Below are positions 1 to 23,174 of a DNA stretch of 32,449 nt, piece by piece. A program made the translations under genes and the position numbers. Below the pieces are notes generated by a model that was given only the letters and a program-made list of their open reading frames with translations, had not been told where the DNA came from and did not search any database. Positions within the stretch are counted from its first letter, which is position 1. Every line of letters starts with the position of its first letter. Location: NCBI GenBank assembly GCA_013002625.1, contig JABDJE010000286.1, forward strand, positions 1-32,449, in the 5' to 3' direction. The DNA is from Saprospiraceae bacterium. Its GTDB lineage: Bacteria > Bacteroidota > Bacteroidia > Chitinophagales > Saprospiraceae.

Positions 1-2592
1 GATCTACACTGTGCACCTTATGATACCTTGTTTGATAAGTTTGGTCAGGTATATGCACTACAGGACACATTGTTCAATGACTATGTAGAATTTTGTTGTG
101 AGGATGCGGGCTTAACAGTAGATGTAATCTTACAGGTTACAGATGCAGGTGGCCGTCATAATACTTGTCGCGTTAAAGTTGAAGTACAAGATAAGACACC
201 GTTTAATATAATCTCATGTCCTGAACGCGTCTGGAATTTGGATTGTACACAAGATATTGATACAGCATTCCTGGGTGTTCCAATAATAGAAGACAACTGT
301 GCTTATGCAAGTTTGGATTTTGAAGATGTTGGAGATATAAACATGGCATGCGGTCAGGGACAGGTAATTCGTTCTTGGTTTGTTGAAGTGAATGGGGTTG
401 TCCAGGAACTTGAATCATGCAGACAGACAATTAATGTATCCAATCAGAATGTATTGAGTTACTATGACTTTGACTGGCCAAATCAGGAACGTACAGATGC
501 AACATGTTTCAATTACCATACAGATCTGGGTGATACGGTGAGAATAAATGGAGTACCGGTTACCGAGCTTGATCTATGTGCTCAACTAGCCTATTCATAC
601 AAGGATAGAGTCTTTCAAAACGTTGAAGGTTACTGCCTGAAAATAATCAGAACTTGGACCGTTATTGACTGGTGTACCTACGATCCGAATAATAACCCTG
701 ACCAGGGTATTTGGACAGATACACAAATCATTAAAGTATCAAATGCTGATGGACCAGAATTGAGCAATTGTGCACAGGATACATTGATACAGATACTAGG
801 CAATACTTGTAGCGCTACAGTCTTCCTTGAAGCACCCACGGCTTATGACCAGTGTTTTGATGAATATTTAGCGCCTTTCAAAATAAGATATGAACTGGTC
901 AATACAGATGCTGACACACTTGTGAGCCTTGGGCTGGGTAATTTATTACCAATAGAATTACATAAAGGGAATTACAGAATTACATGGACTGTTGAAAGCG
1001 GTTGTGGGGTGAGCTCATCATGCTCTGCTTCAATTGCAATAGTAGATGCAAAAGCACCTTCTCCATATTGTAAATCAGGCATAACGACGGTTCTCATGCC
1101 TCCAGGAGTTGGAAATGAAGAACCAATGGTTGAAATCTGGGCCAGCGACTTTGATTTGAACAGTACAGACAATTGTTCTGAAGAACTAATCTTCTCATTT
1201 GACCCGAATACTTTTATTCCAAATATGAGTTTCAGCTGTGAAGAATTAGGATTGCAGGGATTGGACGTTTGGGTAATCGATGAAGCGGGCAATAAAGACT
1301 TTTGCCATACTGCAATTATGATCCAGGCCAATGGAGATATTTGTCCTCAGGACACATCCAATATGGGCATGGCTGTTGGTGGAGATATACTTACGCTGCA
1401 AAATGATAAACTTGAAAATGTCGAGGTAAGTCTTGAAAACATGGTCCAATATAATATGGATTATAAAATGACAGACCAGGATGGACATTTTGAATTTAGA
1501 GCACTCAGAGGCAACGAAGATTATAGAGTACGGGCCAAAAAAGATGATGATCATTTAAATGGAGTGTCTACATTGGATCTTATCATGATTCAGAGACATA
1601 TTCTTGGAGTGGAATCTTTGGACTCACCGTATAAATTAATGGCTGCAGATATCAATTATAATCAGGATATCAGTGCTATTGATTTAATTGAATTGCGCAA
1701 ATTAATTTTGGGTGTTTACAATGAACTGCCTGATAATGACGCATGGAGATTTATCGATAAAGATCAGACTTTCGTTGATGCTTTAAATCCATGGCCATTT
1801 AAGGAAAATATCGATGTAAACAATCTGGCAGCACCAATGATGGAGAATGATTTCATCGCAGTAAAAATTGGTGATGTAAATGGTTCTGTTCAGATGCATA
1901 ACACATCTAATAACACGATAGAATCAAGAGCGGCAAAAAGCGCAGAGTTATCCTATGATATTCTGGAAATCCGACCAAATGCGGAATACCTTGTTCCATT
2001 CTATATTTCGAATATGGAAGAAATGCTGGGACTTCAATTGGAGTTGGCTTTCAATACAGAAGAATATGAGATTATTGGCATCGAAGCGGGAAAGCTTGAT
2101 ATCAGTGATATTAATATCAATTCTTCCGAAGAGACCCTGCGCATAAGCTGGCATACAACAGAACCGGTTATTCTTAATAACGAAGAAGCTATTTTTTACC
2201 TTACGGTTAAAAGCGATCAAAGACTGAGTGTAGGAACCTTTACGGTAAATAATGGATTCCTGAATTCAGAGGTATATGATAGCCAATATGATATCTATAC
2301 GCTTGATCTAAATGAGCAGAACTTAGATGTCAATAATAGATTACATCAGAATATTCCAAACCCATTCAGCGCATCAACTGAAATAGAATTTGATTTGGCC
2401 TGGGATATGGAGGTCACAATAAATATTGTAGACGCGAGAGGGCAATTGGTCAGATCATACAATGGATGGTATAATAAAGGTCGAAATGCAATTACCGTGA
2501 GCAGCAATGATTTGAATGGCAATGGTATTTATTATTTCAATCTTGAATCTGATGCATTCTCAGCAACCAAGAAAATGATTTTAATAGAATAG
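1..2592 (+). CDS. Giant Cys-rich surface protein, 3' part (5' truncated by window edge): HYR/Ig-like modules, dockerin-like domain, cohesin-like domain, T9SS type A sorting domain
   Basis: Frame 1 is open from base 1 (DLHCAPYDTLFDKFGQ...), so the listed Met at 28 is internal. Contains KIIRTWTVIDWC, the dockerin-like LNGVSTLDLIMIQRHILG...ADINYNQDISAIDLIELRKLILG, and C-terminal HQNIPNPFSASTEIEF...KKMILIE typical of T9SS type A CTDs. Confidence 0.88.
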   Translation, partial: DLHCAPYDTLFDKFGQVYALQDTLFNDYVEFCCEDAGLTVDVILQVTDAGGRHNTCRVKVEVQDKTPFNIISCPERVWNLDCTQDIDTAFLGVPIIEDNCAYASLDFEDVGDINMACGQGQVIRSWFVEVNGVVQELESCRQTINVSNQNVLSYYDFDWPNQERTDATCFNYHTDLGDTVRINGVPVTELDLCAQLAYSYKDRVFQNVEGYCLKIIRTWTVIDWCTYDPNNNPDQGIWTDTQIIKVSNADGPELSNCAQDTLIQILGNTCSATVFLEAPTAYDQCFDEYLAPFKIRYELVNTDADTLVSLGLGNLLPIELHKGNYRITWTVESGCGVSSSCSASIAIVDAKAPSPYCKSGITTVLMPPGVGNEEPMVEIWASDFDLNSTDNCSEELIFSFDPNTFIPNMSFSCEELGLQGLDVWVIDEAGNKDFCHTAIMIQANGDICPQDTSNMGMAVGGDILTLQNDKLENVEVSLENMVQYNMDYKMTDQDGHFEFRALRGNEDYRVRAKKDDDHLNGVSTLDLIMIQRHILGVESLDSPYKLMAADINYNQDISAIDLIELRKLILGVYNELPDNDAWRFIDKDQTFVDALNPWPFKENIDVNNLAAPMMENDFIAVKIGDVNGSVQMHNTSNNTIESRAAKSAELSYDILEIRPNAEYLVPFYISNMEEMLGLQLELAFNTEEYEIIGIEAGKLDISDININSSEETLRISWHTTEPVILNNEEAIFYLTVKSDQRLSVGTFTVNNGFLNSEVYDSQYDIYTLDLNEQNLDVNNRLHQNIPNPFSASTEIEFDLAWDMEVTINIVDARGQLVRSYNGWYNKGRNAITVSSNDLNGNGIYYFNLESDAFSATKKMILIE
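1543..1758 (+). other. Dockerin-like domain (72 aa, two F-hand-like repeats)
   Basis: DDDHLNGVSTLDLIMIQRHILGVESLDSPYKLMAADINYNQDISAIDLIELRKLILGVYNELPDNDAWRFID; the second loop D-x-N-x-N-x6-D fits a dockerin calcium loop. Confidence 0.75.
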
Positions 2593-2632
2593 TAAGTTCA
2601 AACTTTTGTTAATCAACTTTACCTTAAAGAGA

Positions 2633-2664
2633 CTCTCATCTGAACTCAGGTGAGAGCTCTTTTC
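2633..2664 (+). terminator. Probable intrinsic terminator
   Basis: CTCTCATCTGA-AC-TCAGGTGAGAG hairpin (one G:T wobble) followed by CTCTTTTC. Confidence 0.55.
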
Positions 2665-2794
2665 ACATACATGCCTTTTTGTTCGTTAATAAAATGGTTT
2701 GATTTTTGGTCTATAGTTTCGATATAATTGTTTTTATATCAGTCATTATGACTAAGATATTTATAACTTTACGTCTTATTTCAAAATCCTGAAC

Positions 2795-5700
2795 ATGCTA
2801 AAACGCCTTAGTATATTGTTTATAATGCTTTTAATGGCTACTGCCAGTTATCAGCAAACCCCATTAAGTTTTACTTTTTCTTCAGATGATACACCAACAC
2901 CTGGACAGACATATGATGTAGATGTTCGTGTTTCTGATTTTGACGATTTATTAAGTAATCAATATTTTATCTTTTGGGATTCACTTGTATTAGAAATTGA
3001 TACGCTGCCCTTTGTGACGATGGATATTCCGAACTATGCAGCATCCATGTCAATTCCTTCTCAGACCCAGTCCATGACCAAAGGAATGGTTAATGTGGCC
3101 TGGTTTACCGGTGATGGATTACCTAAGAGTTTGCCAGATGACCACCTCTTATTTACAATGAGGTTTAATGTTGTGGGATCCGATTGTGATTCAACAGCCA
3201 TTACACTTGGAGCAACAGATGATTTAGAGGTAGAGATCCTGGATGAAAATTTAAATAATATAGGTGCAGACTTCAATCCATTGCCTGTTCCGATTCCCGG
3301 TACCGATTGTGGTGGCGGCGGAGGCGGCAACATGATGGATGGTGTCGGATTGATCTTCGATGATGAAATGGTTTCACCTGGTGGGAATATATGTATTCCG
3401 ATGACGGTTGAAAATTTCGATACCATCGAGACTTTTCAAGGCAGTGTGATGTGGGACCCGGATGTATTAACTTATACTGGCGTTCAGAATTTCGGCTTAC
3501 CGGGATTGACGCAAGGATTATTTGGTACTGGTGATGTGGACAATGGCGTGATTACCTTTTTATGGTTTGATCAGACAGGTGTTACACCTCAAACTTTACC
3601 AGATGGCTCAGTTGTATTCGAAATATGTTTTGATGCTGTGGGTAGTCTAGGTGAAAGTTCTGTTGTGAAAGCATTTGATGGTCCAACTGATGTACAGGCT
3701 TCCAGTCCAGCTCCGATTGGATTAAGAGAAACATTCATAGTTGAAGGATCTATTACCATCGCACAGGATATGGGCGATTTGTTCGGCTTAGAAGCTGCTG
3801 ATGTTTCAGGCGCTCCAAACGGCAGTGTTTGTGTCGATGTAACATCCAATAACTTTACAAATATTTCAGCAATACAACTTAATATGCAGTGGGATTCAAC
3901 CATCCTGTCGTATACCGGAGTTGATAATTTAAATAACGATTTACAGATATTTTCAAACTTCTTTAATCAGACAGCTACCAATGAATTGGTATTCAGCTGG
4001 AGTTCACCCTCTACACAGGGTGTGGACCAACCAGATGGAACTCTAATATATTCTGTGTGCTTCGACATTATTGGAGATTGTGATGATGTTTCATTTTTCA
4101 ATTTTGTGGACAGCGGGGTTCCAATCGAGATTATCGATGGAAACACGAATTCTATACCATTTAATATGATCGATGGCGAAGTGACTGTAGCATGCGGGCT
4201 TACCTGTGATCAAATAAATGCTACTGATCCTAGATGTACCGGAGATTCAAATGGTGCGATAAGTGTCTCGATTATGGGTGGTGTCCCTGATTATTCATGC
4301 GAATGGTTGAAAGATGGCATTACCGTATCTGTTGGAAATGCAAATGGCAACACCTGTATTCTTGCAGGCCAAACTGCGGGTACTTATGAATTGATCGTAA
4401 CAGATGCTGCTTCGAATACAACCTCATGTATAATTGTACTTTCAGATCCATCTCCACCGTCGCTGGTTGAAACGGTTACTGGAGCAAATTGCCCTACCGA
4501 TGATGGAGCTATTGCATTTATCACATTAGGAGGTACTGGAAATATCACTGTGACCTGGTCTCCGGATATTGGAAATGGTGAAAACCTTGCAGCCGGTACT
4601 TATGATTATATACTGGAGGATGACAACGGTTGTACTAATTCTGGTTCAGTTGAGGTGCCTTGTATGAATGAAGAAGTTCCTGTTGAAGTGATCAATGCTA
4701 CCGAATGTGATCCGTGTGGTGCATTAGCTATAATGTGTGATGGTACAATATCAATTGATCCGCCTGTTTTGGACTTAACCTGTGTTCCTGCCGGAACATA
4801 TACGATTACGTGTACAGACGGAAATAGTACTGCACAGTCTACCATAACCGTAGGGACAGATCCTGCGGACCCAATCGATGCTTCAGATATTCAGACTACG
4901 GATGCGGTGTGCAACGGCGCCAATGGTTCTGCAAGCTTTAATATTACAGGGGGTTGTGGTGAATTGACAATAGAAGCAGGCCTCTTAGGAGGTACTTTCG
5001 ATAATATAGAAAATATAAGTTCTTATGCGCCTGGAGATTGGGGCGTGTTGGTTACAGATGAAAATGGAACGACCGAAACGACAAGCTTTACGATAGGTCT
5101 TGTTGGCAGCGAACCTTTGCAAGTAACAATAGATCAAGTTAATAATGCTGATTGTGATAACAACGGTAGTATAGAATTTACAATTGATGGAGGGTGCAAT
5201 GCAGTTGCAGTCGTTACGGGTGCTTCTGGCGAAGTTGATCCTAATAATTTGCCACCAGGTGATTACATGTTGATGGTATCAGATGATGTTGGATCGGTAC
5301 AATCTGCCAATTTCACTATTAATGATGATTCTAATACAACCCCATTGCAAGTTTCTGTAAGCAATCTGGAAGCAGCACCTTGTGCTGACGATGCAGGCTC
5401 TGCTGATATTGCGGCAACAGGTGGATGTGACCCGGTTAATTGTATTTCATTGACAAGGGATGGGTCTGAAGTGGGTTGTAGTGCAATGCTTACACCTGGA
5501 AGTTATGTTATTACATACGAGGACAACAGAGGAAATACAGCAACTGCTTCATTTATAATCGATGGTCCTGATCCAATTGTAATCACTGAAGTGAGTAATA
5601 TGGACGGAAATGTGGATATCGATGTAGATGGAGGAGATGGCGATTATAACTATATGTGGATTTATCCTGACGGGACAACTACTTCCAACGATGAAGACCT

Positions 5701-6592
5701 TAGTGGCTTAACACAAGGAGGCACATACGCTCTGAATGTTTCTGATGGAAATGGCTGTACGGCAACTATAAATATTTTTGTAAATATTGAAGGAAGCTTG
5801 TTACCTATGGTTTCTGTAGTATCCGATTTTGATGGTTTCGGAACACCCTGTGCGGCTACATCTATTCCATGTGAAGGAGAAGGGGTTATCGACGGTTCAA
5901 TTACTGGAGGAACTGCACCTTATACTATAACGCTTGACGATGGTTCTAACCAGACTGAATATTCCAGTTTACCAATTACAGGCGTTTGTGCAGGTACTTA
6001 TACTGTGATCGTTGTAGATGCAGACGGGGCGATGAGTCAGGTACCTAATATTGAGGTTACAAGTCCTGAACCGATTACTATTACAGAAGATGAAGTGGAT
6101 TGTGCTGACTCAGGGTCTGCCAATGGTGCTATTTTCACCATGGTTGAAGGCGGTGTTGGCGGTTATGTGTACGAATGGTCTCCAAATGGACCTGATGGTT
6201 CTGACAATCCAAATGTAAATGTGGGCATGTATATTCTTGAAGTTACGGATGACAACGGATGTACTGCCGAAATGCTATTTGAAGTAAGAGATTGTGCCGC
6301 ACCGGGTACGCCTTGTTTCCAGGGTATATCGGTTATAACTCCTAATAGCGATAACATCAATGATGAGTTCATTATTACTTGTGTGAGTGATAATCCAAAT
6401 ACATTGAGGGTTTTTGACAGGTGGGGTAGGACAGTATTTGAAGAAACAAATTACAGCAACGACTGGGAAGGGAATGATCTTGATGGAGAAGCTCTACCAG
6501 AAGGCGCTTATTATTGGGTACTTGAAGTGCTTTTTGATAACGGCGATAGCCGCATAATGAAAGGTACGGTAACCCTTTTGAGAAATGATTAA
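2795..6592 (+). CDS. Secreted protein with three tandem cohesin-like domains, SprB-like repeats and a T9SS type B (gliding motility-associated, CHU_C-like) C-terminal domain
   Basis: Signal peptide MLKRLSILFIMLLMATASYQ; three repeats of the type ...VDVRVSDFDDLLSNQYFIFWD...VAWFTGDG..LPD.HLLFTMRFNVVG; SprB-like 'C.G.SNGAISVSIMGGVPDYSCEW'; C-term ITPNSDNINDEFIITC...LRVFDRWGRTVFEETNYSNDWEGNDLDGEALPEGAYYWVLEV...KGTVTLLR. Confidence 0.88.
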   Translation: MLKRLSILFIMLLMATASYQQTPLSFTFSSDDTPTPGQTYDVDVRVSDFDDLLSNQYFIFWDSLVLEIDTLPFVTMDIPNYAASMSIPSQTQSMTKGMVNVAWFTGDGLPKSLPDDHLLFTMRFNVVGSDCDSTAITLGATDDLEVEILDENLNNIGADFNPLPVPIPGTDCGGGGGGNMMDGVGLIFDDEMVSPGGNICIPMTVENFDTIETFQGSVMWDPDVLTYTGVQNFGLPGLTQGLFGTGDVDNGVITFLWFDQTGVTPQTLPDGSVVFEICFDAVGSLGESSVVKAFDGPTDVQASSPAPIGLRETFIVEGSITIAQDMGDLFGLEAADVSGAPNGSVCVDVTSNNFTNISAIQLNMQWDSTILSYTGVDNLNNDLQIFSNFFNQTATNELVFSWSSPSTQGVDQPDGTLIYSVCFDIIGDCDDVSFFNFVDSGVPIEIIDGNTNSIPFNMIDGEVTVACGLTCDQINATDPRCTGDSNGAISVSIMGGVPDYSCEWLKDGITVSVGNANGNTCILAGQTAGTYELIVTDAASNTTSCIIVLSDPSPPSLVETVTGANCPTDDGAIAFITLGGTGNITVTWSPDIGNGENLAAGTYDYILEDDNGCTNSGSVEVPCMNEEVPVEVINATECDPCGALAIMCDGTISIDPPVLDLTCVPAGTYTITCTDGNSTAQSTITVGTDPADPIDASDIQTTDAVCNGANGSASFNITGGCGELTIEAGLLGGTFDNIENISSYAPGDWGVLVTDENGTTETTSFTIGLVGSEPLQVTIDQVNNADCDNNGSIEFTIDGGCNAVAVVTGASGEVDPNNLPPGDYMLMVSDDVGSVQSANFTINDDSNTTPLQVSVSNLEAAPCADDAGSADIAATGGCDPVNCISLTRDGSEVGCSAMLTPGSYVITYEDNRGNTATASFIIDGPDPIVITEVSNMDGNVDIDVDGGDGDYNYMWIYPDGTTTSNDEDLSGLTQGGTYALNVSDGNGCTATINIFVNIEGSLLPMVSVVSDFDGFGTPCAATSIPCEGEGVIDGSITGGTAPYTITLDDGSNQTEYSSLPITGVCAGTYTVIVVDADGAMSQVPNIEVTSPEPITITEDEVDCADSGSANGAIFTMVEGGVGGYVYEWSPNGPDGSDNPNVNVGMYILEVTDDNGCTAEMLFEVRDCAAPGTPCFQGISVITPNSDNINDEFIITCVSDNPNTLRVFDRWGRTVFEETNYSNDWEGNDLDGEALPEGAYYWVLEVLFDNGDSRIMKGTVTLLRND
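2864..4194 (+). other. Three tandem cohesin-like domains (approx. 2864-3290, 3343-3768, 3772-4194), the first two joined by a Gly-rich linker
   Basis: Repeated pattern: hydrophobic strand, G/E-VCIxVxxxNFxxIxxxQxxxxWDxxxLxYTGVxNF..., VxFxWxxxxxxxQxLPDGxxxFxxCFDxxG. Confidence 0.65.
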
Positions 6593-6629
6593 TCTACCGA
6601 TTTTTAAAATAAACAGCAGCAATAATAAT

Positions 6630-7565
6630 ATGAGACATATATTCTGCGCTTTCCTGGCTTTCTTGTTTGTAGGTAGTTTGACTGCCCAAGAAAGATATTT
6701 CGATGAAAGATACATATCTAGCCTTTCTTTCCTTAACCCTGTGCTGGTTAACCCAGGCGCAACGGCTAAGGACGGAGAACATAGATTGTTATTAAATTAT
6801 AAAAATACCTGGTCATCCTTTGAAGGTTCACCACAGAGTGTGATTTTAAGTTATGATGGTCCAGTTGCTGATAGACTTGGATTCGGAGCTCAATTGATTT
6901 CGGATTCAAATGGTGACTTGAGAATGACAAAGGCTCAGGGACAAGTATCTTATACAATCGACGCCCCGGTCAATGTGATTGGTTTTGGTATCGGAGCTGA
7001 ATATATCAACCATTCACTATCAGCCGATGCGCTCAATAACACAATTATTGACAGAGATGATCCAATTGTAAATGATAGATTGGCAGGTGCCAGTTTCTTT
7101 GATGTGTCATTTGGTATATATGGTGTATATGATGGTAAATTAAGTTATGGTATTTCATTCCCTTCTTTGGTGAGTACCAGAATTGAGGATACCAATACAG
7201 AAAGCGACAGAGAGATAGGCTATATATTCAATCTGGGATATATCTTCGATAAATCAGATGTGGTATTTGAGCCATCAATCATGGTTAAAAAATTAAATCA
7301 AGTTCCATTCCATGCAGATATCAATTTATTGGGAAGATTTTTAGATGACAAATTGAGGGGAGGAATTACTTATACAGTAGGAGCGGATGAAAAGATTGGT
7401 TTCCTTGTAGGAACTATAATTGGAAACTTGAATTTCACATATGCATATAATGCGAGTAGGCATGAATTCCAGACCTATAACAATGGGTCTCATGAGTTAT
7501 CCGTATTATTTCAAATTGGAAAGAAAAAAGACGATACTTCAATGAATACGGGAGCGGGTAATTAA
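6630..7565 (+). CDS. Type IX secretion system membrane protein, PorP/SprF family
   Basis: MRHIFCAFLAFLFVGSLTAQERYFDERYISSLSFLNPVLVNPGATA..., beta-barrel-like C-term, directly follows the type B CTD gene. ORF track starts at 6585, but Met16 at 6630 begins a proper signal peptide. Confidence 0.88.
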   Translation: MRHIFCAFLAFLFVGSLTAQERYFDERYISSLSFLNPVLVNPGATAKDGEHRLLLNYKNTWSSFEGSPQSVILSYDGPVADRLGFGAQLISDSNGDLRMTKAQGQVSYTIDAPVNVIGFGIGAEYINHSLSADALNNTIIDRDDPIVNDRLAGASFFDVSFGIYGVYDGKLSYGISFPSLVSTRIEDTNTESDREIGYIFNLGYIFDKSDVVFEPSIMVKKLNQVPFHADINLLGRFLDDKLRGGITYTVGADEKIGFLVGTIIGNLNFTYAYNASRHEFQTYNNGSHELSVLFQIGKKKDDTSMNTGAGN

Positions 7566-7941: not shown

Positions 7942-8427
7942 ATGAAAAAGGCGTATAACGTTTATTCAATTTTTGAGAAACTCAATGTAGCTGCGGGTGT
8001 GAAAGCGTTCTCAGTTTTGTTGATGTTTTCTATTTGCTTCTTGGGGTTAAGCGCTGATGTGTCTGCACAGTCGTTTAATTCTGACCCGAACGCAGTAGCA
8101 GTTGACCACACTGTAATAAAGAACACAGTGGTTAACGAAGATAAAAATGCTGCAATTCAAGTTATTAAGGCTGAAATGTCAATTCTTCAGGATCAGGTTT
8201 TGCAAGTGCAAAATTCTGCAAGAGAAGAGGTTGTACATGGAGCTAAAATGCATTTCTTAACAAGATTAGGTACTGAGCTGAAAGGTGGAACCGACGTAGT
8301 GAATTCACTTATGTCTGCACACACCAGTTTGGCTACTTATGCTGAGCCATTCAATAACAATCCTCCAACGGCAGGATTTATTGATGTTGAGGGTATTGTT
8401 GAGTTATACGCAGCTAAGTTGCAATAA
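7942..8427 (+). CDS. Hypothetical small secreted protein (161 aa)
   Basis: ORF with hydrophobic N-terminal segment ending ADVSAQS; 54 bp upstream of the 2361-aa gene, same strand. No recognised family. Confidence 0.75.
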   Translation: MKKAYNVYSIFEKLNVAAGVKAFSVLLMFSICFLGLSADVSAQSFNSDPNAVAVDHTVIKNTVVNEDKNAAIQVIKAEMSILQDQVLQVQNSAREEVVHGAKMHFLTRLGTELKGGTDVVNSLMSAHTSLATYAEPFNNNPPTAGFIDVEGIVELYAAKLQ

Positions 8428-14400: not shown

Positions 14401-15567
14401 GAAAACGTTGAGGTAATGAATGTAGTTTCTATTCCAGACCTTAACGAAATGAACATGACTGATAACACTGGTAACTACATGTTCGATAACCAAATTAATG
14501 ATCTTAACTATGAGCTTACGGCTTCTAAGAATGATGATTACTTGAACGGTGTAAGTACACTTGACTTACTATTGATTCAAAGACACATTTTAGGAATCGA
14601 GCAATTAGACGATCCTTATAAGTTTATCGCTGCTGACGTTAACAACGATAACGAGATTACAGCTGTTGACTTAATTGAATTGAGAAAACTTATCTTAGGA
14701 ATCTACAATGAGTTACCAAACAATGGTAGCTGGAGATTCGCTGATGCTAATCAAGTATTAGATATCAACGATCCATGGAACCTAGATGAGACACTTCAAA
14801 TCAACGGTTTGAACACTAACATGATGCACGAAGATTTCGTAGGTATCAAGATTGGTGACGTAAACGAGAGTGTAACTTCTAACTCTAGCGCTACTTCTAC
14901 TGAAGACAGATCTTCTGCTTCAATCACTGTTAACTACACTGATAGAGAAGTTGCTGCTGGTGAATTAGTTGAGCTTACAGTTTCTGGTTCAGCATTAGCT
15001 GATCTTTACGGATACCAGTTCACTATGAACACTGCAGGTCTAGAGCTAGTTAGCGTACAAGCAGGTGCTGTAGATGTTACTGATGAGAACTTTGCTTCTC
15101 TAGGTAATGTTGTAACATCATCTTGGAATACTACTACTCCAGTAACTACTGATGAGGCATTATTTACAATGACATTCAAGTCAGCTACTTCTGGTAAGCT
15201 ATCTGATATCATTGCAATAAACAGCAACATCACTAAAGCTGAGGCTTATGTAGGTTCTGACTTGTCAATCGTTGACATCGATGTAGAAAATACTTCTGGA
15301 AGTGCAGACTTTGTATTGCATCAGAACGAACCTAACCCATTCACTGCAACAACAGTAATTGGTTTCGTTATGCCTGAGGCAGCAGATGCTACATTTACAG
15401 TATACGATGTAACTGGAAAAGTAATTACTGTTCTTAACGGTAACTACGCTAAAGGTTACAATGAAATAGAATTGAGTAAATCCGATTTAGGTGCTGCTGG
15501 TGTACTTTACTATCAGTTAGATAGTGGTGACTTCACAGCTACGAAGAAGATGATTATAATCGAATAG
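8482..15567 (+). CDS. Giant Cys-rich surface protein (2361 aa): HYR/Ig-like modules, P-domain, dockerin-like domain, cohesin-like domain, T9SS type A sorting domain
   Basis: Signal peptide MKNIYSQILAVVCFVLCVVGSQSLNAQA; P-domain (VTVDMQLSHSWTGDLDIFLTGPDGT...GGDWTLQIFDNVGGDGG); DWC modules; dockerin-like domain; C-term LHQNEPNPFTATTVIGF...ATKKMIIIE. Confidence 0.93.
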   Translation: MKNIYSQILAVVCFVLCVVGSQSLNAQAATVTYTSGIFDGENGWQLVDVTTNTLTAACYATGDTGGSMQVAPLIPGNTYELRAWESFGDNWNGATLALTANGGISYGPDGNPGNADGNGTIGCGSVAPNGALAFSFVAQAPPCEMTCAPDITVSTAPGVCESAPITLAGPTFDPAGCNVGVPGDFTEVCGPTTPLNFNAFGLIQTQFDIPGVAPLNPAITCVSEICVDVLMVADIGGTGFEQTNILGEDGVTVLGQNGTSAGDCNPMGGTSTVCMSVANYDAWAADGTLSLFVATDADIDNICITSTIEGCVQIPGSCQDYLNDYNGMSDVMNAVFPQGTTTITYSSTASGTGDPIQCQTNVTVLDMEGPTINCPGDATYNLQGGECAEILTFDVSASDNCPAASFAVNGPFCDPCADPTGGSALACSAGPNSIIQGIDLSGITGTNFLSGVCFNQETFGTTTALTVNIYCDEGSVPFQGGPQAPIYSEDFTLSNANNGSCVCLDFTGMPILPSNCTMVWVEFVNQVGRSVQTPPNCDGNNATGMNSYIYAPACGLTTPSLFSGIGFILDASYQLLLQSTGVPVEQINVAVPPGATLNAFESGDEFPIGTHCFAYQATDATGNTATCSWCYTVNEFPEEDQVTSIACNDVVNVSLDEACSAEIGADMFLEGGPYGCYETDYEVYISGFSGDQNGAFVPLECGTTYTVTVVDVDTGISCWGEMLAEDKLPPVLVCADDVTLNCLQSTDPGQTVIGVAGVSAPPNSAVWSDATTGLVSSQSFTVPPATTGAVVTNVTVDMQLSHSWTGDLDIFLTGPDGTVVQLINSPCGANDNIDATFDDNADNPISCAACFTPFGSHETCQSPYLTCATINNQNQPASFSAGGNGLGAFAGQPLGGDWTLQIFDNVGGDGGCLETFAINLEWAVPAAGAPTIANACGGESLTYSDQYFDNDCDGSFIQRTWTATDACGNSGSCLQTIFITQIGADGENSEWFWPENPIDLTCGASYTPDDIYEYFSSQYAAQFPQLPNWIADPDWFEEEIAEWECNVDAAGVRRAYPYFINSKGLQQSFLANNCNMLFTYDDLILPACGSGCNGNNKVIRTWTALDWCTAETRTAVQVIHAKDNEAPTFDLPSTFTVSASPWGCAATFYLPVPEHLHDNCSADVTYRVYGKPGTVAEDVSSPYYDAAAGAWRVDALPKDGSPHEYIYEASDCCGNLSTSSLFVTVVDGSAPIAVAKQNIVISLTSSPTDPNGGLAKLFAHSVDNGSHDGDCGPVRIAVRRTDDESCNNLGVDGHNNNSTFFNFNNLPNSSQPDLHDRDDTDEGEYVKFCCADLTGPNAVDEDGDGVPDYALIDVELGVWDDANMDGTPGTVGDLFGLTWATVRVEAKLQPQLICPPKAMITCDMDENDDFVIDNMLGRASASSTCGALPVTYEDICGLDLNQDGEVANFVLGKNETFFVNESGYMWDINGDGFIASYTAREGDRVVEDLFNKACHYGPLMRVWSIEGTNVSCTQIIIISEPTTLFDGDTQIDWPYSKNEFINLVDNDGRADCNGDGISNDVSSSDITLFPDNNNPTYAEVKMDCIDALCEEPAWVEANCALIGWTLDSDTFYFEGDACRKIINTYTVIDWCQYDVNDPFSGGIWTWTVIGKLVDPFAPEVTADDDMFEAVPGVGGSGTGINEAPCVGVGIQMSATATDKVVDADGDTLFNACPSQWIKWNVYLDINNDWTYEREWSSFVQEDRNTSTDPLWSEDNAADNIAVYGYPIPDVRVGNRGGVDNASDLATEPGFEYTINIPDQIPADCGETQHRVVWKAYDGCGNVTSVTSYFTVQDKKAPTPYCINLSTALMADPDGETGPLEAMVELWAIDFDAGSFDNCTEYENLRFTFTDTPPQDDPNYNADLNSSAQVFTCEDLNGASPAFLTLPIYVWDECGNYDFCLVNLRLVDNQGGCGIDSSGSMIAGLIETPFGSSVENVEVMNVVSIPDLNEMNMTDNTGNYMFDNQINDLNYELTASKNDDYLNGVSTLDLLLIQRHILGIEQLDDPYKFIAADVNNDNEITAVDLIELRKLILGIYNELPNNGSWRFADANQVLDINDPWNLDETLQINGLNTNMMHEDFVGIKIGDVNESVTSNSSATSTEDRSSASITVNYTDREVAAGELVELTVSGSALADLYGYQFTMNTAGLELVSVQAGAVDVTDENFASLGNVVTSSWNTTTPVTTDEALFTMTFKSATSGKLSDIIAINSNITKAEAYVGSDLSIVDIDVENTSGSADFVLHQNEPNPFTATTVIGFVMPEAADATFTVYDVTGKVITVLNGNYAKGYNEIELSKSDLGAAGVLYYQLDSGDFTATKKMIIIE
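10796..11250 (+). other. Proprotein convertase P-domain (P/Homo B-like)
   Basis: TVPPATTGAVVTNVTVDMQLSHSWTGDLDIFLTGPDGTVVQL...FAGQPLGGDWTLQIFDNVGGDGGCLETFAINLEW. Confidence 0.8.
14530..14745 (+). other. Dockerin-like domain (72 aa)
   Basis: NDDYLNGVSTLDLLLIQRHILGIEQLDDPYKFIAADVNNDNEITAVDLIELRKLILGIYNELPNNGSWRFAD. Confidence 0.78.
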
Positions 15568-15632: not shown

Positions 15633-15666
15633 AGATAAGCCGAATATTGTATATTAATTTTAAACG

Positions 15667-17925
15667 ATGAATAAGTATTTAGTTATCATAATTGTATTTA
15701 CGCTTTCAATATTCTCATGCACCAATGAGCCGAGCGTAAATAATCCAGGATTAGTTGAAAGTTCTAGCAGCACTTCTGATATGGAGACATCGAGAATGAA
15801 GTCTGAATTACTTCAACTGGCTAATGACAGGAGTAATATTAATATTTGGCATCTTAACAAAGAACGAGCAATACAGTATGACAATACTTGGCCTCAGCTA
15901 CAAGATCCTGGTCAAAGGATTACACTTATGTTTAAATCAAGTATGGATTGGTTAAATGCCGGTGATTATGAAAAATCAATTCAGCGCTTAAACTCTATTT
16001 TCAATTATATCAGTGACAATAAAGTAAATCTAGATAGACAAGCATTAAATCAAGCTAAAGAGCTATTGGGGATTAGTTATTTGAGAAAAGCTGAAGTAGA
16101 GAATTGTATAAGGTATCATAATGCTTATTCATGCATTTTTCCGATCAGCCAAGAAGGACAACACATTGTAAAAGACGGAGCGACACAAGCACGGATTATA
16201 TTTGAGGAATTATTGAATAGTAATCCTGACAATGATCAATATAAGTGGCTTCTAAATATTTGCCATATGACTTTAGGGACTTATCCTGATGGTGTGCAAA
16301 AGAAGTATTTGGTTTCTCCTGAAGTGTTAAGATCAGATATTAAATTTCCAAAATTTTTCGATATAGCCAGTGGCTTAGGTGTAGGCATTAATGATATCTC
16401 AGGTAGTGTTGTAATCGATGACTTCAATAATGACTATTACTATGATATTTTGATTAGTTCATACGGACTTAATGATCAATTGTACTATTATGAAAGCGAT
16501 GGTGAATCCGGCTTAGTTGATAAAACAGAGGATGCAAATCTAAAGGGTATGTTCAGTGGGCTGAATATGGTTCAGGCGGATTATAATAATGATGGGTATT
16601 TAGATGTCCTTGTATTAAGGGGTGCATGGCTTGGACAATATGGCACACACCCTAATTCGCTTTTACGTAATAACGGGGATGGCAGTTTTAGTGATGTTAC
16701 GCGTTCTTCAGGGCTCTATTCGTTGTTACCAACTCAAACAGCAACCTGGGCTGATTTCAATAATGATGGATGGATAGATTTATTTATTGCAAATGAGAGT
16801 TCACCCAGATTGCAGACTCAATGTCAACTCTTTTATAATAACCAGGATGGGACCTTCGCAGAAGTTGGCATCAGCAAAGGTGTTAATGTCAGTGCTTTTA
16901 TTAAAGGTTGTACCTCTTCTGATTACGATAATGATGGAGATGTCGACATATATTTATCTCTCATAACTGGCAATAATATTCTATTTCAAAATCAAGGCGC
17001 TCAAGGTGATTTTATATTTAAGAATGTGGCTCAAATAGCAGGCGTTGAATCGCCAGTAAAGAGCTTTCCTTGCTGGTTTTTTGATGTAAACCAGGATGGG
17101 TGGCAAGATTTATTTGTAAGTGGGTTTGATTTTACCCAATTTCAAACAGCAGCTGGTGAGGTATGTAAAGACTTTCTTGGTAAACCTGTAACAGCGGAAA
17201 AGCCATCACTTTTTATAAATAGCCAAGACGGTACTTTTAAAGAGGAATCAGAGTCTTATGATGTAAATGATGTTTTGTTCACAATGGGGTGTAACTACGG
17301 TGATCTTAATAATGATGGATTTCCTGACTTCTATGCTGCGACAGGTACACCAGATTTTAGAGCGCTTATTCCTAATAAAATGTATCTAAATCAAAAGTCA
17401 AAATTCGCTGATGTAACAACCAGTGGCGGATTTGGCCATTTGCAAAAAGGCCACGGTGTAGCTTTTGCTGATATCGACATGGATGGTGATCAAGATGTCT
17501 ATAATGTTCTTGGTGGCTCATACGATGGAGACAACTTTATGAATACATTATACGATAATCCTGGGGTCGGGGATAATGATTGGGTTAAATTGAAGCTTGT
17601 CGGAACAAATTCAAATCGAGCTGCAATTGGTGCCCAGGTTACGACACAGGTTGTAGATGTTAATGGACAGACTAGGACTTATTATAATGTTGTTAGTTCA
17701 GGTGGGAGTTTTGGCGCTAATCCACTTACAATCGAGCAAGGATTAGGAAAAGTTGAACGCATCGTTAATGTACGTGTTATCTGGCCGGGAAGCCAAGCAG
17801 TTAGTAATTACAAGAATTTAAAACCAGGCATTTTGTATTTATTAAAAGAGGATAAGCAAGATGCTGAACGCATAGAGGCACCTCCAATTAAATGGAATCT
17901 ATCTGGTCATCACCATAGGCATTAA
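15667..17925 (+). CDS. CRTAC1-like lipoprotein: N-terminal helical/TPR-like region, FG-GAP/VCBS repeats, ASPIC/UnbV C-terminal domain
   Basis: Lipobox-like LSIFSC; repeated D.N.DG..D loops (DYNNDGYLDVL, DFNNDGWIDLF, DYDNDGDVDIY, DLNNDGFPDFY, DIDMDGDQDVY); C-term RAAIGAQVTTQVVDVNGQTRTYYNVVSSGGSFGANPLTIEQGLGKVERIVNVRVIWPGS. Confidence 0.88.
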   Translation: MNKYLVIIIVFTLSIFSCTNEPSVNNPGLVESSSSTSDMETSRMKSELLQLANDRSNINIWHLNKERAIQYDNTWPQLQDPGQRITLMFKSSMDWLNAGDYEKSIQRLNSIFNYISDNKVNLDRQALNQAKELLGISYLRKAEVENCIRYHNAYSCIFPISQEGQHIVKDGATQARIIFEELLNSNPDNDQYKWLLNICHMTLGTYPDGVQKKYLVSPEVLRSDIKFPKFFDIASGLGVGINDISGSVVIDDFNNDYYYDILISSYGLNDQLYYYESDGESGLVDKTEDANLKGMFSGLNMVQADYNNDGYLDVLVLRGAWLGQYGTHPNSLLRNNGDGSFSDVTRSSGLYSLLPTQTATWADFNNDGWIDLFIANESSPRLQTQCQLFYNNQDGTFAEVGISKGVNVSAFIKGCTSSDYDNDGDVDIYLSLITGNNILFQNQGAQGDFIFKNVAQIAGVESPVKSFPCWFFDVNQDGWQDLFVSGFDFTQFQTAAGEVCKDFLGKPVTAEKPSLFINSQDGTFKEESESYDVNDVLFTMGCNYGDLNNDGFPDFYAATGTPDFRALIPNKMYLNQKSKFADVTTSGGFGHLQKGHGVAFADIDMDGDQDVYNVLGGSYDGDNFMNTLYDNPGVGDNDWVKLKLVGTNSNRAAIGAQVTTQVVDVNGQTRTYYNVVSSGGSFGANPLTIEQGLGKVERIVNVRVIWPGSQAVSNYKNLKPGILYLLKEDKQDAERIEAPPIKWNLSGHHHRH

Positions 17926-17963
17926 AGCTTATATTATATATTTTAATATATATATGTAAAAAA

Positions 17964-18180: not shown

Positions 18181-21100
18181 ATGAAGTATTTGAACAGTAC
18201 CGTGTTATCATGGTCTAGAAGTATTGTGATATTAACTACCTTGTTATTGGTTATCACATCTTCCAATTTCTCTTACGCACAATGTTCACTCGCTTGTAAC
18301 GGAAGTACGCAAGTCTCTCTTGACGTTAATTGTGAAGCAGAAATAACACCAGAAATGATTCTTAACGATCAAAACACCTCGTGTCCATCAGGTGATTTCT
18401 ACGTTGAGGTCTACACCCAATATAACGATATACCTACAAGTCCGGTTGTAACTGGATATTATATGGGACAAACCATTATAGCTGAAGTTATCGATGACAA
18501 CAGTGGTAATTCTTGTTGGGGATATATTACAATAGAAGATAAGTTGGGACCAATTATTGACTTTTGTCCAGTTGATCCTATTGAAGTAGCATGCAGTGAC
18601 TTATCAGCTTATGAAGGTCCAACTTTTATTGATGCTTGTGAAGGTCCAGTGGATCCAATCCTTATATCAGAGACTATTACGCCATTAAGTTGTGATGATG
18701 ACTATATCAAGGAAATTACAAGAATATATACTGCTGTTGACAGTAAAGGATATTACGCACCTCAGTGCACAATTACCTATCTATTGTTAAGAATTGATTT
18801 TGACGATGTAATCTGTCCTGATAATTATACCATTTACGATGATAATTCTTTGAATTGTGACGGTACTTGGAAAGATGGTCAGGACCCAGGTAATTTTGAT
18901 ACAGACACTAACGGTGATGGTATTTTAGATAAAGATGTATTCTGGGATGATAATGGTAATAATTATCCTGATCCTGAAGAAGTTGGAGTTCCTGTGATTG
19001 TATTGAACAATACTGTTATACCTACGTCAGGTGATTATCTGGCCTTATACCCTTATCCAGATATTTATTGTAATTCAGCAGTAACATTTGATGATTTTGA
19101 GTTGCCTCAAGTAGGTTGTTCTAGAAAGATTATGAGATCATGGATCTTAAGAGAATGGCACTGTAATGGTGAAGTAAATGATACCTGCCTTCAAATCATT
19201 GAAATATTTGATGATGAGGCACCGGAGGTTGTTTGTCCTCCGTCAATTCAAGTAACTACGAATACCCTTACGGGTCCTACAAATAGTCACTACGGTGATG
19301 TAACATGTGGCGCAACGCTACAATTGCCATTACCTGGTGCTACGGATAATTGTTCTTCTATGATTTCCTATGATCTTGATTATCCTGGTGGATTTGAAAA
19401 ATATTATGACGGTACTAAGGCTATAACCCTGTCCATGGGCTACAATATTGTAACCTATACAGTGTATGATGAATGTTATAACAGTGAAACATGTGATGTT
19501 GTAGTAGAAGTAATCGATAACACGCCTCCTGTAGCTGTGTGTGATCAATTTACGGTTGTAAGCTTAACAACAGGCGGCCAAGCTAAAGTAAATGCAACCT
19601 CATTTGATGACGGGTCGTACGATGATTGTAAAGATCACTGTATGCTGGTTAGAAGAATGGATAATGCTGGATGTGAGTGCCATGTTCCAACCTTTTGTAA
19701 TCTTGATTATCTAGGAGAATATGAAGGAAGCTATTACTATGTTTCAACCTATGAAATAACAGCAGATATAGCAAAATCTAGAGCTGCAGCCTACGGTGGA
19801 ACATTAGCGATCTTTGATACATATGCAGAAGAGTCTTGGGTAGTTTCTGAAGCAAGAAAAAAGAATGCAGATGGCGAGTTTTGGATTGGTTTAAAATCTT
19901 TCGGTGCGGGTTGGTTATGGGATGACCATAGCTCTGTATTGTACAACAACTGGGATTACCTTCAACCTACTTACAACCCAGAAGAAGATTGTGTATTTGT
20001 AAATGAAAATGATAAGTGGGAAAACTCAGTATGCCACAACGATCAATATTACATTTTTGAAATAAAAAATATCTGTGGATTCAGTGAGACTGCAACATTC
20101 TGTTGTAGTGATGTAGGAAATGACAATATGGTTGTATTCAGAGTAGTTGACGTATTTGGTAACTACAATGATTGTATGGTTAGCGTTGATGTTCAGGATA
20201 AGCTGGCACCAACAGTAGTATGTCCACTTGATCAAACTGTTAATTGTGATGCACCATTTGATATTAATAATCTTGGATTATTGTATGGTGAAGCATCGGT
20301 ATTAGATGATTGTGGTGCTACAGTGAGCGATTCAATCGTGGATGAACTCAACCAATGTAGTATTGGTGAGATTACGAGAATATTTACAGCGACTGATAAT
20401 GGTGGAAGACAATCTACTTGTAAGCAAATATTGACATTTGAAAAACCAGACTATGGATATAATCTTGGAGACCTTGTGGTTTGCCCTAGAGACACCACCA
20501 TATTCGGATGTGATGCTCCTGAAGATCTAGGCCCGGATGTATTGGGTTATCCAGGACTACCTGTAGATAACTGCGCATTGGTAGGCGCTGATTGGGATGA
20601 TGAAGTGTTTACCTTTAATAACTTCAATGGTGATGCTTGCTTCAAAATCTTAAGACACTGGGAAATTATCGATTGGTGTGAGCAAGATCCAAAAACGGGA
20701 TTATTTCCTGTGTATCCTTGTCAGCAAGTAATAAAGATATCTAACAGTGTTAGACCAGAGTTTACTATGTCTTGTGACACTATCGATGTATGTACGTATG
20801 ACTCTGACTGTAATAACGGGTTCGTAGAATTGGTTATGACAGGTGAAGATGATTGTACTGAAGATGAGAATCTAAGATGGAGATATAAGATATATGCTGG
20901 AGAATTGGGTGTTGGACCTTATTCTTTAACCGGCACTCCTTTTCTTGAATATTCAGGCGTAGGAGATTCTATCAACGCAAGTGGAACGTATCCGGTTGGA
21001 ACGCATGTGATACAATGGACATTCTTTGATAAGTGTGGTAATGCTTCTACTTGTAATCAGACATTTAGTATTACAAATTGTAAAGCACCAACTGCATACT

Positions 21101-22662
21101 GTATCAGTGGACTAGCAGTGGACTTAATGCCGGTAGACTCTGATAATGATGGAGACATTGATTTCGGAATGATTGAATTATGGGCCAGTGACTTTGATGC
21201 AGGGAGTTTCCACACATGTGACTTCTATGAAGTTCTGTTATCTTTTTCACCTGACACATCAGAAAGAAATAAGGTTTATACGTGTGATGATCGATTGCTT
21301 GAAGCAGATGAAAATGGAAATGTAGAAGTAGAAATTTGGGCGACAATAGTAGATCAGGCAGGTAATTTGATACAATCCTATTGTGAAACATACATCAATA
21401 TTCAAGATAACATGAATGCATGTGTGGGTCAATCTGATGTACGGGTTGATGTAGATGGTATTATTTACACAGAAGACCTTGAAACTGTTGAGGCGATTGA
21501 TGTTAGTCTGGAAGGAAGTGAATTTGATTACAGCACAGAACAAGATGGTTCTTATGCTTTCCCTAATATGCCTACGGGCGGGGACTATGTAATCGATCCA
21601 TATAGTAATAATGCTCCATTAAACGGAGTATCAACTTTAGATATTCTAGAAATTCAAAAGCATATTCTAGGAATAGAAAGACTAACATCTCCTTACAAAA
21701 TAATTGCGGCTGATGTTAACAAAGACAATGAATTAACATCAGTTGACTTGATCGAATTAAGAAAATTGATTCTTGGGATTTACAGTGATTTACCAAATAA
21801 TGATTCTTGGAGATTTGTTGATAAAGCTTACATATTCCAAGATCCTTTAAGTCCTCTTGAAGAGTTGTTTACCGAGGACTATGAAATTGTAAATCTGAAT
21901 ACTGATATGCATGTTGACTTCATCGCAGTGAAAGTTGGAGATGTGAACAGCACAGCAGAAATAAAATCTGGTGAGACTGTTGAAGGCAGATCAGCTGGTG
22001 TAATGGAAATGACTTATGAAGTGGGTGAGCTTACCGAAGGAGATATTGTCAGAATTCCGGTTGTATTAACATCAGATGCAATATCAGGATATCAATTTGA
22101 TTTGACATATGATAACAATGCTTTAGAAATACTTGACATTAATGGCGTAGAGACAGATTTCAATACTTCAAACTATAACAAATCAAGTGTTAACAGCATA
22201 GCCATCAGTTATCATAATACAGTTCCTGTTGAGCAGGGTACGGCATTGTTCGAAATAGTAGCACGTGCTAAAACAACAACAGAGGCTCAGGATATTTTAA
22301 ACATTGGAAATACGGTTGTGAAAGCGGAAGCTTATGCGCAAAAGCAAATATTGCAACCTTCAATTAGCAATGTAGGCGTTCCTGTTGAACCAGTGGCATC
22401 AACATTTGTATTGAACCAGAATTCACCTAACCCATTCCAGTCAATGACACAGGTTGACTTTGTATTGGAGCAGGATGAATTTGCAACGATTAATGTACAT
22501 GATGTTCACGGTAAACTGATAGCTGAATACAATGGTCAATACAATAAAGGATTGAATTCAATCCAGATTAATGCCAAAGAGCTTGGAGCTACTGGTGTAT
22601 TGTATTTGACGTTACAAACAGACACAAATACGGCATCAATTAAGATGGTCGTGATAAAATAA
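18181..22662 (+). CDS. Giant Cys-rich surface protein (1493 aa): HYR/Ig-like modules, C-type lectin-like domain, dockerin-like domain, cohesin-like domain, T9SS type A sorting domain
   Basis: N-terminal hydrophobic signal ending ...NFSYAQC; CTLD; R.W..IDWC module; dockerin-like domain; C-term LNQNSPNPFQSMTQVDF...ASIKMVVIK. Confidence 0.92.
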   Translation: MKYLNSTVLSWSRSIVILTTLLLVITSSNFSYAQCSLACNGSTQVSLDVNCEAEITPEMILNDQNTSCPSGDFYVEVYTQYNDIPTSPVVTGYYMGQTIIAEVIDDNSGNSCWGYITIEDKLGPIIDFCPVDPIEVACSDLSAYEGPTFIDACEGPVDPILISETITPLSCDDDYIKEITRIYTAVDSKGYYAPQCTITYLLLRIDFDDVICPDNYTIYDDNSLNCDGTWKDGQDPGNFDTDTNGDGILDKDVFWDDNGNNYPDPEEVGVPVIVLNNTVIPTSGDYLALYPYPDIYCNSAVTFDDFELPQVGCSRKIMRSWILREWHCNGEVNDTCLQIIEIFDDEAPEVVCPPSIQVTTNTLTGPTNSHYGDVTCGATLQLPLPGATDNCSSMISYDLDYPGGFEKYYDGTKAITLSMGYNIVTYTVYDECYNSETCDVVVEVIDNTPPVAVCDQFTVVSLTTGGQAKVNATSFDDGSYDDCKDHCMLVRRMDNAGCECHVPTFCNLDYLGEYEGSYYYVSTYEITADIAKSRAAAYGGTLAIFDTYAEESWVVSEARKKNADGEFWIGLKSFGAGWLWDDHSSVLYNNWDYLQPTYNPEEDCVFVNENDKWENSVCHNDQYYIFEIKNICGFSETATFCCSDVGNDNMVVFRVVDVFGNYNDCMVSVDVQDKLAPTVVCPLDQTVNCDAPFDINNLGLLYGEASVLDDCGATVSDSIVDELNQCSIGEITRIFTATDNGGRQSTCKQILTFEKPDYGYNLGDLVVCPRDTTIFGCDAPEDLGPDVLGYPGLPVDNCALVGADWDDEVFTFNNFNGDACFKILRHWEIIDWCEQDPKTGLFPVYPCQQVIKISNSVRPEFTMSCDTIDVCTYDSDCNNGFVELVMTGEDDCTEDENLRWRYKIYAGELGVGPYSLTGTPFLEYSGVGDSINASGTYPVGTHVIQWTFFDKCGNASTCNQTFSITNCKAPTAYCISGLAVDLMPVDSDNDGDIDFGMIELWASDFDAGSFHTCDFYEVLLSFSPDTSERNKVYTCDDRLLEADENGNVEVEIWATIVDQAGNLIQSYCETYINIQDNMNACVGQSDVRVDVDGIIYTEDLETVEAIDVSLEGSEFDYSTEQDGSYAFPNMPTGGDYVIDPYSNNAPLNGVSTLDILEIQKHILGIERLTSPYKIIAADVNKDNELTSVDLIELRKLILGIYSDLPNNDSWRFVDKAYIFQDPLSPLEELFTEDYEIVNLNTDMHVDFIAVKVGDVNSTAEIKSGETVEGRSAGVMEMTYEVGELTEGDIVRIPVVLTSDAISGYQFDLTYDNNALEILDINGVETDFNTSNYNKSSVNSIAISYHNTVPVEQGTALFEIVARAKTTTEAQDILNIGNTVVKAEAYAQKQILQPSISNVGVPVEPVASTFVLNQNSPNPFQSMTQVDFVLEQDEFATINVHDVHGKLIAEYNGQYNKGLNSIQINAKELGATGVLYLTLQTDTNTASIKMVVIK
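19696..20070 (+). other. C-type lectin-like domain (CTLD)
   Basis: GSYYYVSTYEITADIAKSRAAAYGGTLAIFDTYAEESWVVSEARKKNADGEFWIGLKSFGAGWLWDDHSSVLYNNWDYLQPTYNPEEDCVFVNENDKWENSVCHNDQYYIFEIK: WIGL, NW...P, EDCV and KW.. hallmarks. Confidence 0.85.
21607..21822 (+). other. Dockerin-like domain (72 aa)
   Basis: NNAPLNGVSTLDILEIQKHILGIERLTSPYKIIAADVNKDNELTSVDLIELRKLILGIYSDLPNNDSWRFVD. Confidence 0.77.
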
Positions 22663-22689
22663 ATTTAAGAATTACTGTTTTTGGGATGG

Positions 22690-22729
22690 GGCCCCTCTCC
22701 AAAGAGTTGGAGGGGGTCTTTTTTTTTAT
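22690..22729 (+). terminator. Intrinsic terminator of the 1493-aa gene
   Basis: GCCCCTCTCCAA-AGAG-TTGGAGGGGGTC stem-loop followed by a long T tract. Confidence 0.85.
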
Positions 22730-22763
22730 TGAACTTTTATGTTCCTGATTGAATTGTATTGAT

Positions 22764-23174
22764 GTGTCAAGAATAATCGGAATAGACTATGGAATTAAGA
22801 AGTGCGGTATCGCAGTTACTGATCCAATGCAAATTATTGTTAATCCTCTAAAAACAGTGAAGACAAGTAGTTTGCTCAATTTTTTAAAGACCTACATCGG
22901 TGAAGAAAATGTGAGTAAATGTGTATTTGGACTTCCTAGTCATCTAGATGGCAATCCCACCTATGTTGTGGAACATATTCATAATTTTGTAACTCATTTA
23001 AAAAAATCGTTTCCCAAGTTGGAAGTAGACTTTCAAGACGAGAATTATACTTCTAAAGAAGCCAAGGAAATAATTTTACAATCCGGTTTGTCTAAAAAAC
23101 AAAGACAGGATAAATCAAGGTTGGATAAAATAAGTGCTGTATTAATTTTACAGAGATATTTAAAACATATTTAA
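22764..23174 (+). CDS. ruvX: Putative Holliday junction resolvase RuvX/YqgF
   Basis: RIIGIDYGIKKCGIAVTDPMQIIVNPL...VFGLPSHLDGNP...DENYTSKEAKEI...DKISAVLILQRYL. Track starts at a TTG (22749); GTG at 22764 gives the family-typical MSRIIGIDYG start. Confidence 0.9.
   Translation: MSRIIGIDYGIKKCGIAVTDPMQIIVNPLKTVKTSSLLNFLKTYIGEENVSKCVFGLPSHLDGNPTYVVEHIHNFVTHLKKSFPKLEVDFQDENYTSKEAKEIILQSGLSKKQRQDKSRLDKISAVLILQRYLKHI

Follow-up and report, generated by a model that had tools for sequence, protein, structure and literature searches.

A candidate non-enzymatic cohesin–dockerin surface-assembly cassette linked to type IX secretion in Saprospiraceae

Introduction

Bacteria that degrade plant fibre assemble enzymes by means of cohesin–dockerin pairs, and it is chiefly in this role that such pairs are known. 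In C. thermocellum CipA, an Ig-like X-module precedes a type II dockerin, whose trans partner is an anchoring cohesin. Here we analyze a 32,449-nucleotide stretch of DNA from a Saprospiraceae bacterium (assembly GCA_013002625.1, contig JABDJE010000286.1, positions 1 to 32,449 of the forward strand; hereafter the window), in which three giant surface proteins with dockerin-like domains are encoded together with a protein containing three tandem cohesin-like domains. The genome is a 3.1-Mb draft of 365 contigs, 89.5% complete, and the window is its contig 58. Saprospiraceae appear to re-use the plug-and-socket domains of the cellulosome to clip giant non-enzymatic surface proteins, with plug and socket usually located in the same protein.

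As in the clostridial cellulosome, the tandem cohesins of the window belong to a non-catalytic, putatively surface-anchored protein, the dockerins of its candidate partners lie on the C-terminal side, the folds are the same, and a type II-like contact glutamine is present (compare Protein Data Bank (PDB) entries 2y3n and 3l8q). Unlike the clostridial system, the locus belongs to a Gram-negative bacterium, relies on the type IX secretion system (T9SS) for export, fuses the dockerin to a cohesin of its own and, in those dockerin proteins that were scanned, revealed no catalytic domain; a protein of the PorP/SprF family probably takes the place of the S-layer or sortase anchor. The Ig-like module ahead of the dockerin recalls CipA, unlike which another cohesin follows here in cis.

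Candidatus Stygibacter (Cloacimonadota) has a predicted T9SS-linked, cellulosome-like complex with predicted dockerin partners, whose scaffoldin-like protein likewise combines tandem cohesins with a T9SS-type C-terminal domain (CTD); unlike here, the partners are hydrolases and peptidases, the scaffoldin carries carbohydrate-binding modules (CBMs), the phylum is a different one, and the description consulted mentions no dockerin–cohesin module in cis (PMC8542988). In Ruminococcus bromii Amy4, cohesin and dockerin do reside in one secreted protein, but this is an amylosome amylase of Firmicutes with the order cohesin–dockerin and no T9SS (PMC9112005). In both P. gingivalis and F. johnsoniae, PorP-like proteins are bound by proteins with a type B CTD; the F. 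johnsoniae SprB/SprF and P. gingivalis PG1035/PorP systems resemble the window in having a type B CTD surface protein encoded with, or bound to, a PorP-like barrel, and SprB repeats, but their description includes neither cohesins nor partners with dockerins (PMC9143113). None of the nearest relatives, namely cellulosomes, the Cloacimonadota complex and Amy4, combines non-enzymatic giants, a CNA-B–dockerin–cohesin end module and a PorP/SprF cassette. In the open-access literature, to which our search was confined (subscription papers lay outside it), we found no description of cohesins or dockerins for Saprospiraceae beyond a passing survey of carbohydrate-active enzymes (CAZymes).

We propose, with a probability of roughly 0.5, that the locus is a Saprospiraceae-specific, non-enzymatic cohesin–dockerin surface-assembly cassette, exported by T9SS, whose giants are gathered by dockerin–cohesin contacts. 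The multi-cohesin protein, referred to below as the scaffold, would be anchored at the outer membrane through the product of the adjoining PorP/SprF gene. The giants would use type A CTDs for export and terminate in a CNA-B–dockerin–cohesin module folded as one unit. In the resting state a giant's dockerin would sit on its own cohesin; contacts with the scaffold cohesins, or with the cohesin of a neighbouring giant, would then gather the giants. If true, this would extend the cohesin–dockerin principle to adhesins and to a whole Bacteroidota family with many copies per genome, and would offer a testable explanation of how a cell retains and arranges giant T9SS surface proteins. A function would likewise be assigned to proteins that are abundant yet unannotated in Saprospiraceae, a family common in activated sludge and in marine samples, and protein engineering would gain natural cis-fused dockerin–cohesin modules as well as pairs that depend on Ca2+.

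Dockerin and cohesin domains encoded in the window

The giants, the scaffold and the PorP/SprF protein are all encoded on the plus strand. Three long open reading frames (ORFs), giant 1 (1-2592; 863 amino acids visible, the 5′ end being cut by the contig start), giant 2 (8482-15567; 2361 amino acids) and giant 3 (18181-22662; 1493 amino acids), each combine a Pfam match to dockerin with a T9SS sorting domain of type A. Dockerin_1 (PF00404) matched residues 522-570 of giant 1 (window positions 1564-1710), 2024-2072 of giant 2 (14551-14697; 28.6 bits) and 1150-1198 of giant 3 (21628-21774; 25.7 bits). Giants 2 and 3 score above the curated cut-off of 22.9 bits and giant 1 just below it, with 21.3 bits for the whole protein and 22.8 bits for the isolated module; a genome-wide scan placed Dockerin_1 above the cut-off at all three window positions and at about 13 others in the same genome. 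The three cores align without gaps. Profile searches thus bear out the dockerin-like domain that a sequence-only reading of the window had noticed in the three giants.

Together with a conserved WRF...KIGDVN extension, the dockerin spans 1510-1890 in giant 1, 14497-14874 in giant 2 and 21565-21954 in giant 3. Its second Ca2+ loop is canonical (D122, N124, D/S/N126, S/T130, D133). In giant 1 the dockerin is preceded by a CNA-B- or CarboxypepD_reg-like domain (1378-1542; Pfam CarboxypepD_reg at residues 460-514, below cut-off). The type A sorting domains, at 2332-2589 (Por_Secre_tail 3.4e-9), 15304-15564 and 22396-22659, reach 32.5, 34.9 and 27.3 bits with TIGR04183 (cut-off 23). Elsewhere, giant 2 contains P_proprotein and HYR-like domains, and giant 3 contains C-type lectin and HYR-like domains. 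Domain scans of the three window giants and of nine further dockerin proteins from the same genome detected nothing catalytic; a cellulosome was therefore rejected, in agreement with the earlier reading. With their HYR, Ig-like, lectin and P-domains, and in keeping with this negative scan, the giants are probably adhesive or structural.

The gene downstream of giant 1 encodes the scaffold candidate of 1265 amino acids (2795-6592). Pfam Cohesin (PF00963) matched it in two stretches (E = 6.7e-11; 43 bits against a cut-off of 24.1), and AlphaFold modelled its three-cohesin part as three β-sandwiches, with a mean predicted local distance difference test (pLDDT) score of 85.9 and a predicted template modelling (pTM) score of 0.56. 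Foldseek returned the type II cohesin dyad 3l8q as the top match (E = 2e-13), and comparison with single cohesins gave target-normalised TM scores of about 0.80-0.82 at root-mean-square deviations of 2.3-3.3. Cohesin 1 occupies 2858-3304, cohesin 2, which holds the best Pfam Cohesin stretch, 3332-3757, and cohesin 3 3770-4186. A single-sequence phmmer search of the PDB with cohesin 2 found no match; alignment profiles did match. The three tandem cohesin-like domains suggested earlier for this protein are consequently well founded. A chance domain match was considered for the cohesins and dockerins and rejected on the grounds of our own profiles, folds and conservation.

The cohesins are followed by an SprB-like repeat region (4217-6300, the exact limits being approximate; Pfam SprB 4.4e-12, four stretches) and by a T9SS type B sorting domain (6305-6589), for which CHU_C (2.3e-22, 79.3 bits) and TIGR04131 (42.6 bits, cut-off 35) confirm the type B signal recognized at first sight. 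The next gene (6585-7565), to which the sequence-only reading had not drawn attention, overlaps the stop codon region of the scaffold gene and encodes an outer-membrane protein of the PorP/SprF family (TIGR03519, 167.7 bits against a cut-off of 90.55; PF11751, 1.5e-47), a candidate scaffold anchor. Since PorP-like barrels bind type B proteins in the two Bacteroidota studied, the scaffold is, by analogy, probably held at the outer membrane by this neighbour. A second protein of the same genome (contig 165, L235:4049-8395; 1449 amino acids, cut by the contig end) has two far-apart cohesin-like domains and no Pfam match at E 0.01.

Gene order and distribution across relatives

The order giant, multi-cohesin protein, PorP/SprF is repeated in many Saprospiraceae genera; among relatives that can be cultivated, Portibacter marinus (L193) has the cassette. 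We assembled two sets of loci, 40 selected by cohesin similarity and 80 by dockerin similarity, some of which share genomes. The cohesin-selected set contained 28 ORFs with at least two cohesins: a dockerin giant was located directly upstream on the same strand in 10 cases and within three genes in 15, while PorP/SprF followed directly downstream in 17. Among the 16 multi-cohesin ORFs of the dockerin-selected loci, 12 had a giant upstream and 15 had PorP/SprF downstream. Random placement would yield an upstream giant for about 0.1 of the 28 ORFs, and 10/28 has a probability near 1e-17; this model assumes 15 dockerin genes among 4000, and clustering of surface genes makes the true chance larger. 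In a variant of the cassette (9/28), a small single-cohesin type A protein lies upstream of the scaffold. Proteins with one cohesin and a type A CTD (approximately 260-330 amino acids) occupy the position directly upstream of the scaffold in L120, L121, L129, L130, L132, L138, L146, L152, L242, L245 and L251.

Dockerin modules are present in 55 of 61 family genomes, in 1-38 copies. In a sample of the phylum (n = 248), strong matches to the module were limited, beyond the family, to two genomes, and the seven genomes with strong dockerin matches were the same seven as those with strong cohesin matches. All six family genomes without dockerin modules also lacked a multi-cohesin match, as did two more genomes with one weak dockerin match each. 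For single cohesin domains, the co-occurrence table (54/1/0/6, Fisher 1e-7) and the copy-number correlation of 0.65 are to some extent trivial, since such a search can also match cis cohesins; moreover, related genomes are not independent.

The sequence-only reading had tentatively cast the type B protein as a scaffold that docks the giants. Its domain identities stand, and the arrangement with PorP/SprF is conserved across genera; what the model overlooked is a cohesin located in cis behind the dockerin of every giant, described below.

One of the loci with a dockerin module (L225) comes from a metagenome-assembled genome named Aureispira sp. CCB-QB1; in Aureispira, T9SS surface structures serve prey capture. 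Short contigs in records titled Acidimicrobiales and Alphaproteobacteria (L160 and L170) also encode close relatives of the module and are probably mis-binned.

Stand-alone dockerins beside multi-cohesin genes

In five genera, a frame of 196-219 amino acids consists of a signal peptide, a CNA-B-like domain, a dockerin and the extension, with neither cohesin nor CTD. Each of these frames (L119:6214-6870(-), L139:1470-2075(-), L247:7759-8400, L248:7373-7960 and L249:5055-5702(-)) lies directly downstream, on the same strand, of a gene for a multi-cohesin protein of 930-1397 amino acids, and among the matches listed the dockerin frames shorter than 300 amino acids lie directly after multi-cohesin genes in 5/5 cases. 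The genome of the window itself encodes a dockerin protein of 296 amino acids (contig 56, L011:5578-6465(-)) that stops right after KIGDLN, without cohesin or CTD; it has housekeeping-like genes on either side and no adjoining multi-cohesin gene. A 349-residue dockerin protein in L250 is likewise not beside a multi-cohesin gene.

The five stand-alone dockerins, which may share ancestry, differ from those of the modules at two recognition positions: Phe97 (5/5 versus 21/191) and Gln103 (0/5 versus 160/191). Judged by gene neighbourhood, their location beside multi-cohesin genes argues for trans pairing somewhere in the family, and they constitute the best genomic evidence for it.

The cis cohesin and its dockerin-contact face

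In each window giant, a cohesin-like domain is inserted between the dockerin and the type A sorting domain (1927-2322 in giant 1, 14908-15294 in giant 2 and 21988-22371 in giant 3). A profile built from the copies of this genome, the three window giants included, scored 130-142 bits in all three (130 in giant 1, 142 in giant 2). With the giant 3 module in isolation, Pfam Cohesin scored 25.3 bits, above the cut-off of 24.1; the domains of giants 1 and 2 fall below it, that of giant 1 giving no Pfam Cohesin match by itself, and their identification rests on our own profile. A further profile, derived from 13 complete modules of the same genome, matched PDB cohesins and PDB dockerins alike.

The usual order in the module is CNA-B-like domain, dockerin, conserved extension, cohesin-like domain and type A CTD. 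A type A CTD was reached in 186 of 195 distinct dockerin modules collected, and in 179 of these 186 a cohesin-like domain sits 8-36 residues behind the dockerin module. AlphaFold modelled the giant 3 module, aligned with 103 relatives, with a mean pLDDT of 92.7 and a pTM of 0.85. All top Foldseek matches of this model were cohesins (E = 1.8e-7), although the cis domain reached target-normalised TM scores of only about 0.5-0.68 within the multidomain model. Because the pTM of the module (0.85) contrasts with that of the tandem scaffold cohesins (0.56), the prediction suggests that the dockerin lobe and the cis cohesin are rigidly placed relative to each other, as read from this contrast rather than from coordinates or predicted aligned error.

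The most conserved residues of the cis cohesin, Gln249 (190/191), Tyr329, Gly247, Ser287 and Glu327, point outward on strands 3, 6 and 8 according to strand order and alternation, with the 8-3-6-5 sheet assigned from the AlphaFold strand order and not from coordinates. In the alignment to 2y3n, Gln249 falls on position 37 of the chain, which fits the dockerin-contacting Gln37: in the 2y3n complex, this residue of the 8-3-6-5 plateau forms a hydrogen bond with the dockerin (PMC8063739). The contact Gln recurs in 113 of 143 scaffold cohesins (79%), including all three of the window, and in scaffold cohesins position 247 is Ser/Gly, 251 is Thr/Ser and 327 is Glu. The conserved outward residues thus include Gly/Ser247, Thr/Ser251, Ser287 and Glu327; Tyr329 is confined to the cis group.

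The strongest rival to our proposal is that the dockerin and cohesin of each giant bind only each other, forming a rigid, Ca2+-stabilised, membrane-proximal end piece; no trans assembly would take place, and the scaffold cohesins would bind other ligands or act as a stalk. We regard this account as possible though rather doubtful. It draws on the cohesin-like domain that so regularly follows the dockerin at short distance, on the difference in pTM between the module and the tandem cohesins, and on the near-invariant outward residues of strands 3, 6 and 8, the cis-specific Tyr329 among them. Two sampled Bacteroidota outside the family (L236 and L237) point the same way, as they encode cohesin, CNA-B, dockerin and cohesin in one protein (weakly in L237), and no scaffold was found nearby. 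However, binding in cis only leaves unexplained the order of giant, multi-cohesin and PorP/SprF genes, the joint absence of dockerins and multi-cohesin proteins from genomes, the contact residues shared by scaffold cohesins and the stand-alone dockerin genes beside multi-cohesin genes.

Dockerin and cohesin share one chain, and their recognition residues hardly differ between paralogues, which would also allow swapping: the dockerin of one giant could bind the cis cohesin of the next, producing a surface polymer or sheath that the tri-cohesin protein merely seeds. Many giants per genome are in keeping with such a chain, but nothing here separates it from pairing within each giant, and the rigid placement predicted by AlphaFold favours cis binding in the monomer; we hold it to be highly improbable.

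Evidence for and against trans assembly

Several observations weigh against the gathering of giants in trans by the proposed cassette. With a cohesin in cis in every giant, the dockerin may not be free: given the rigid cis cohesin of the model and the contact Gln in nearly all copies, each giant may already have its dockerin engaged by its own cohesin. Direct coupling analysis of 191 modules, aimed at locating the dockerin–cohesin interface, found no inter-lobe pairs above noise. The first Ca2+ loop of the dockerin is non-canonical, with Leu/Met at position 5, while D/N87, D89, S95 and D98 are kept. At the helix 1/3 positions, the dockerins of scaffold-adjoining giants have the same recognition residues as those of other giants, and the differences between the two groups are confined to the extension. 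Some dockerin-rich genomes have no tandem scaffold match; one of them, G052, is 98% complete and contains 14-16 dockerin modules and just a single-cohesin match. Finally, the stand-alone dockerins adjoin another type of multi-cohesin protein; Pfam detects type A signals in both of those examined.

Two of these points, the degenerate loop 1 and the inter-lobe covariation at noise level, would also be compatible with an absence of functional cohesin–dockerin pairing, as would the modest Pfam scores. Generic β-sandwich and EF-hand-like building blocks would then be kept for stability or spacing, and the neighbourhood would reflect clustering of surface-protein genes, which occurs anyway: 21 dockerin genes have another dockerin gene next after them. 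Against this stand the polar outward residues retained on the dockerin-binding sheet together with the contact Gln, the fixed gene order with PorP/SprF, and the short dockerin frames that, among the matches listed, all directly follow multi-cohesin genes. We consider such an absence of pairing unlikely.

Returning to the proposed surface-assembly cassette, we put the chances that the scaffold cohesins hold the giants in trans at about even. A bolder version can be offered only tentatively: PorP/SprF-anchored multi-cohesin proteins might collect interchangeable giant adhesins, with the cis cohesin capping the dockerin until a scaffold or a neighbour is met. Docking would then be exchangeable or regulated, and the result would be a modular coat found throughout Saprospiraceae.

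Other genes of the window

The start of a fourth giant occupies 29885-32449 and resembles the N-terminal part of the others; it has no Pfam match in this portion, and the contig end cuts it, so that no C-terminal module is visible. The 161-residue ORF between the PorP/SprF gene and giant 2 (7942-8427) probably begins with a signal peptide and matches no family. Giants 2 and 3 are separated by a gene for an FG-GAP/ASPIC-UnbV repeat protein of 752 amino acids (15667-17925), to which a neighbour protein in the L148 and L168 cassettes is partly, and more distantly, similar.

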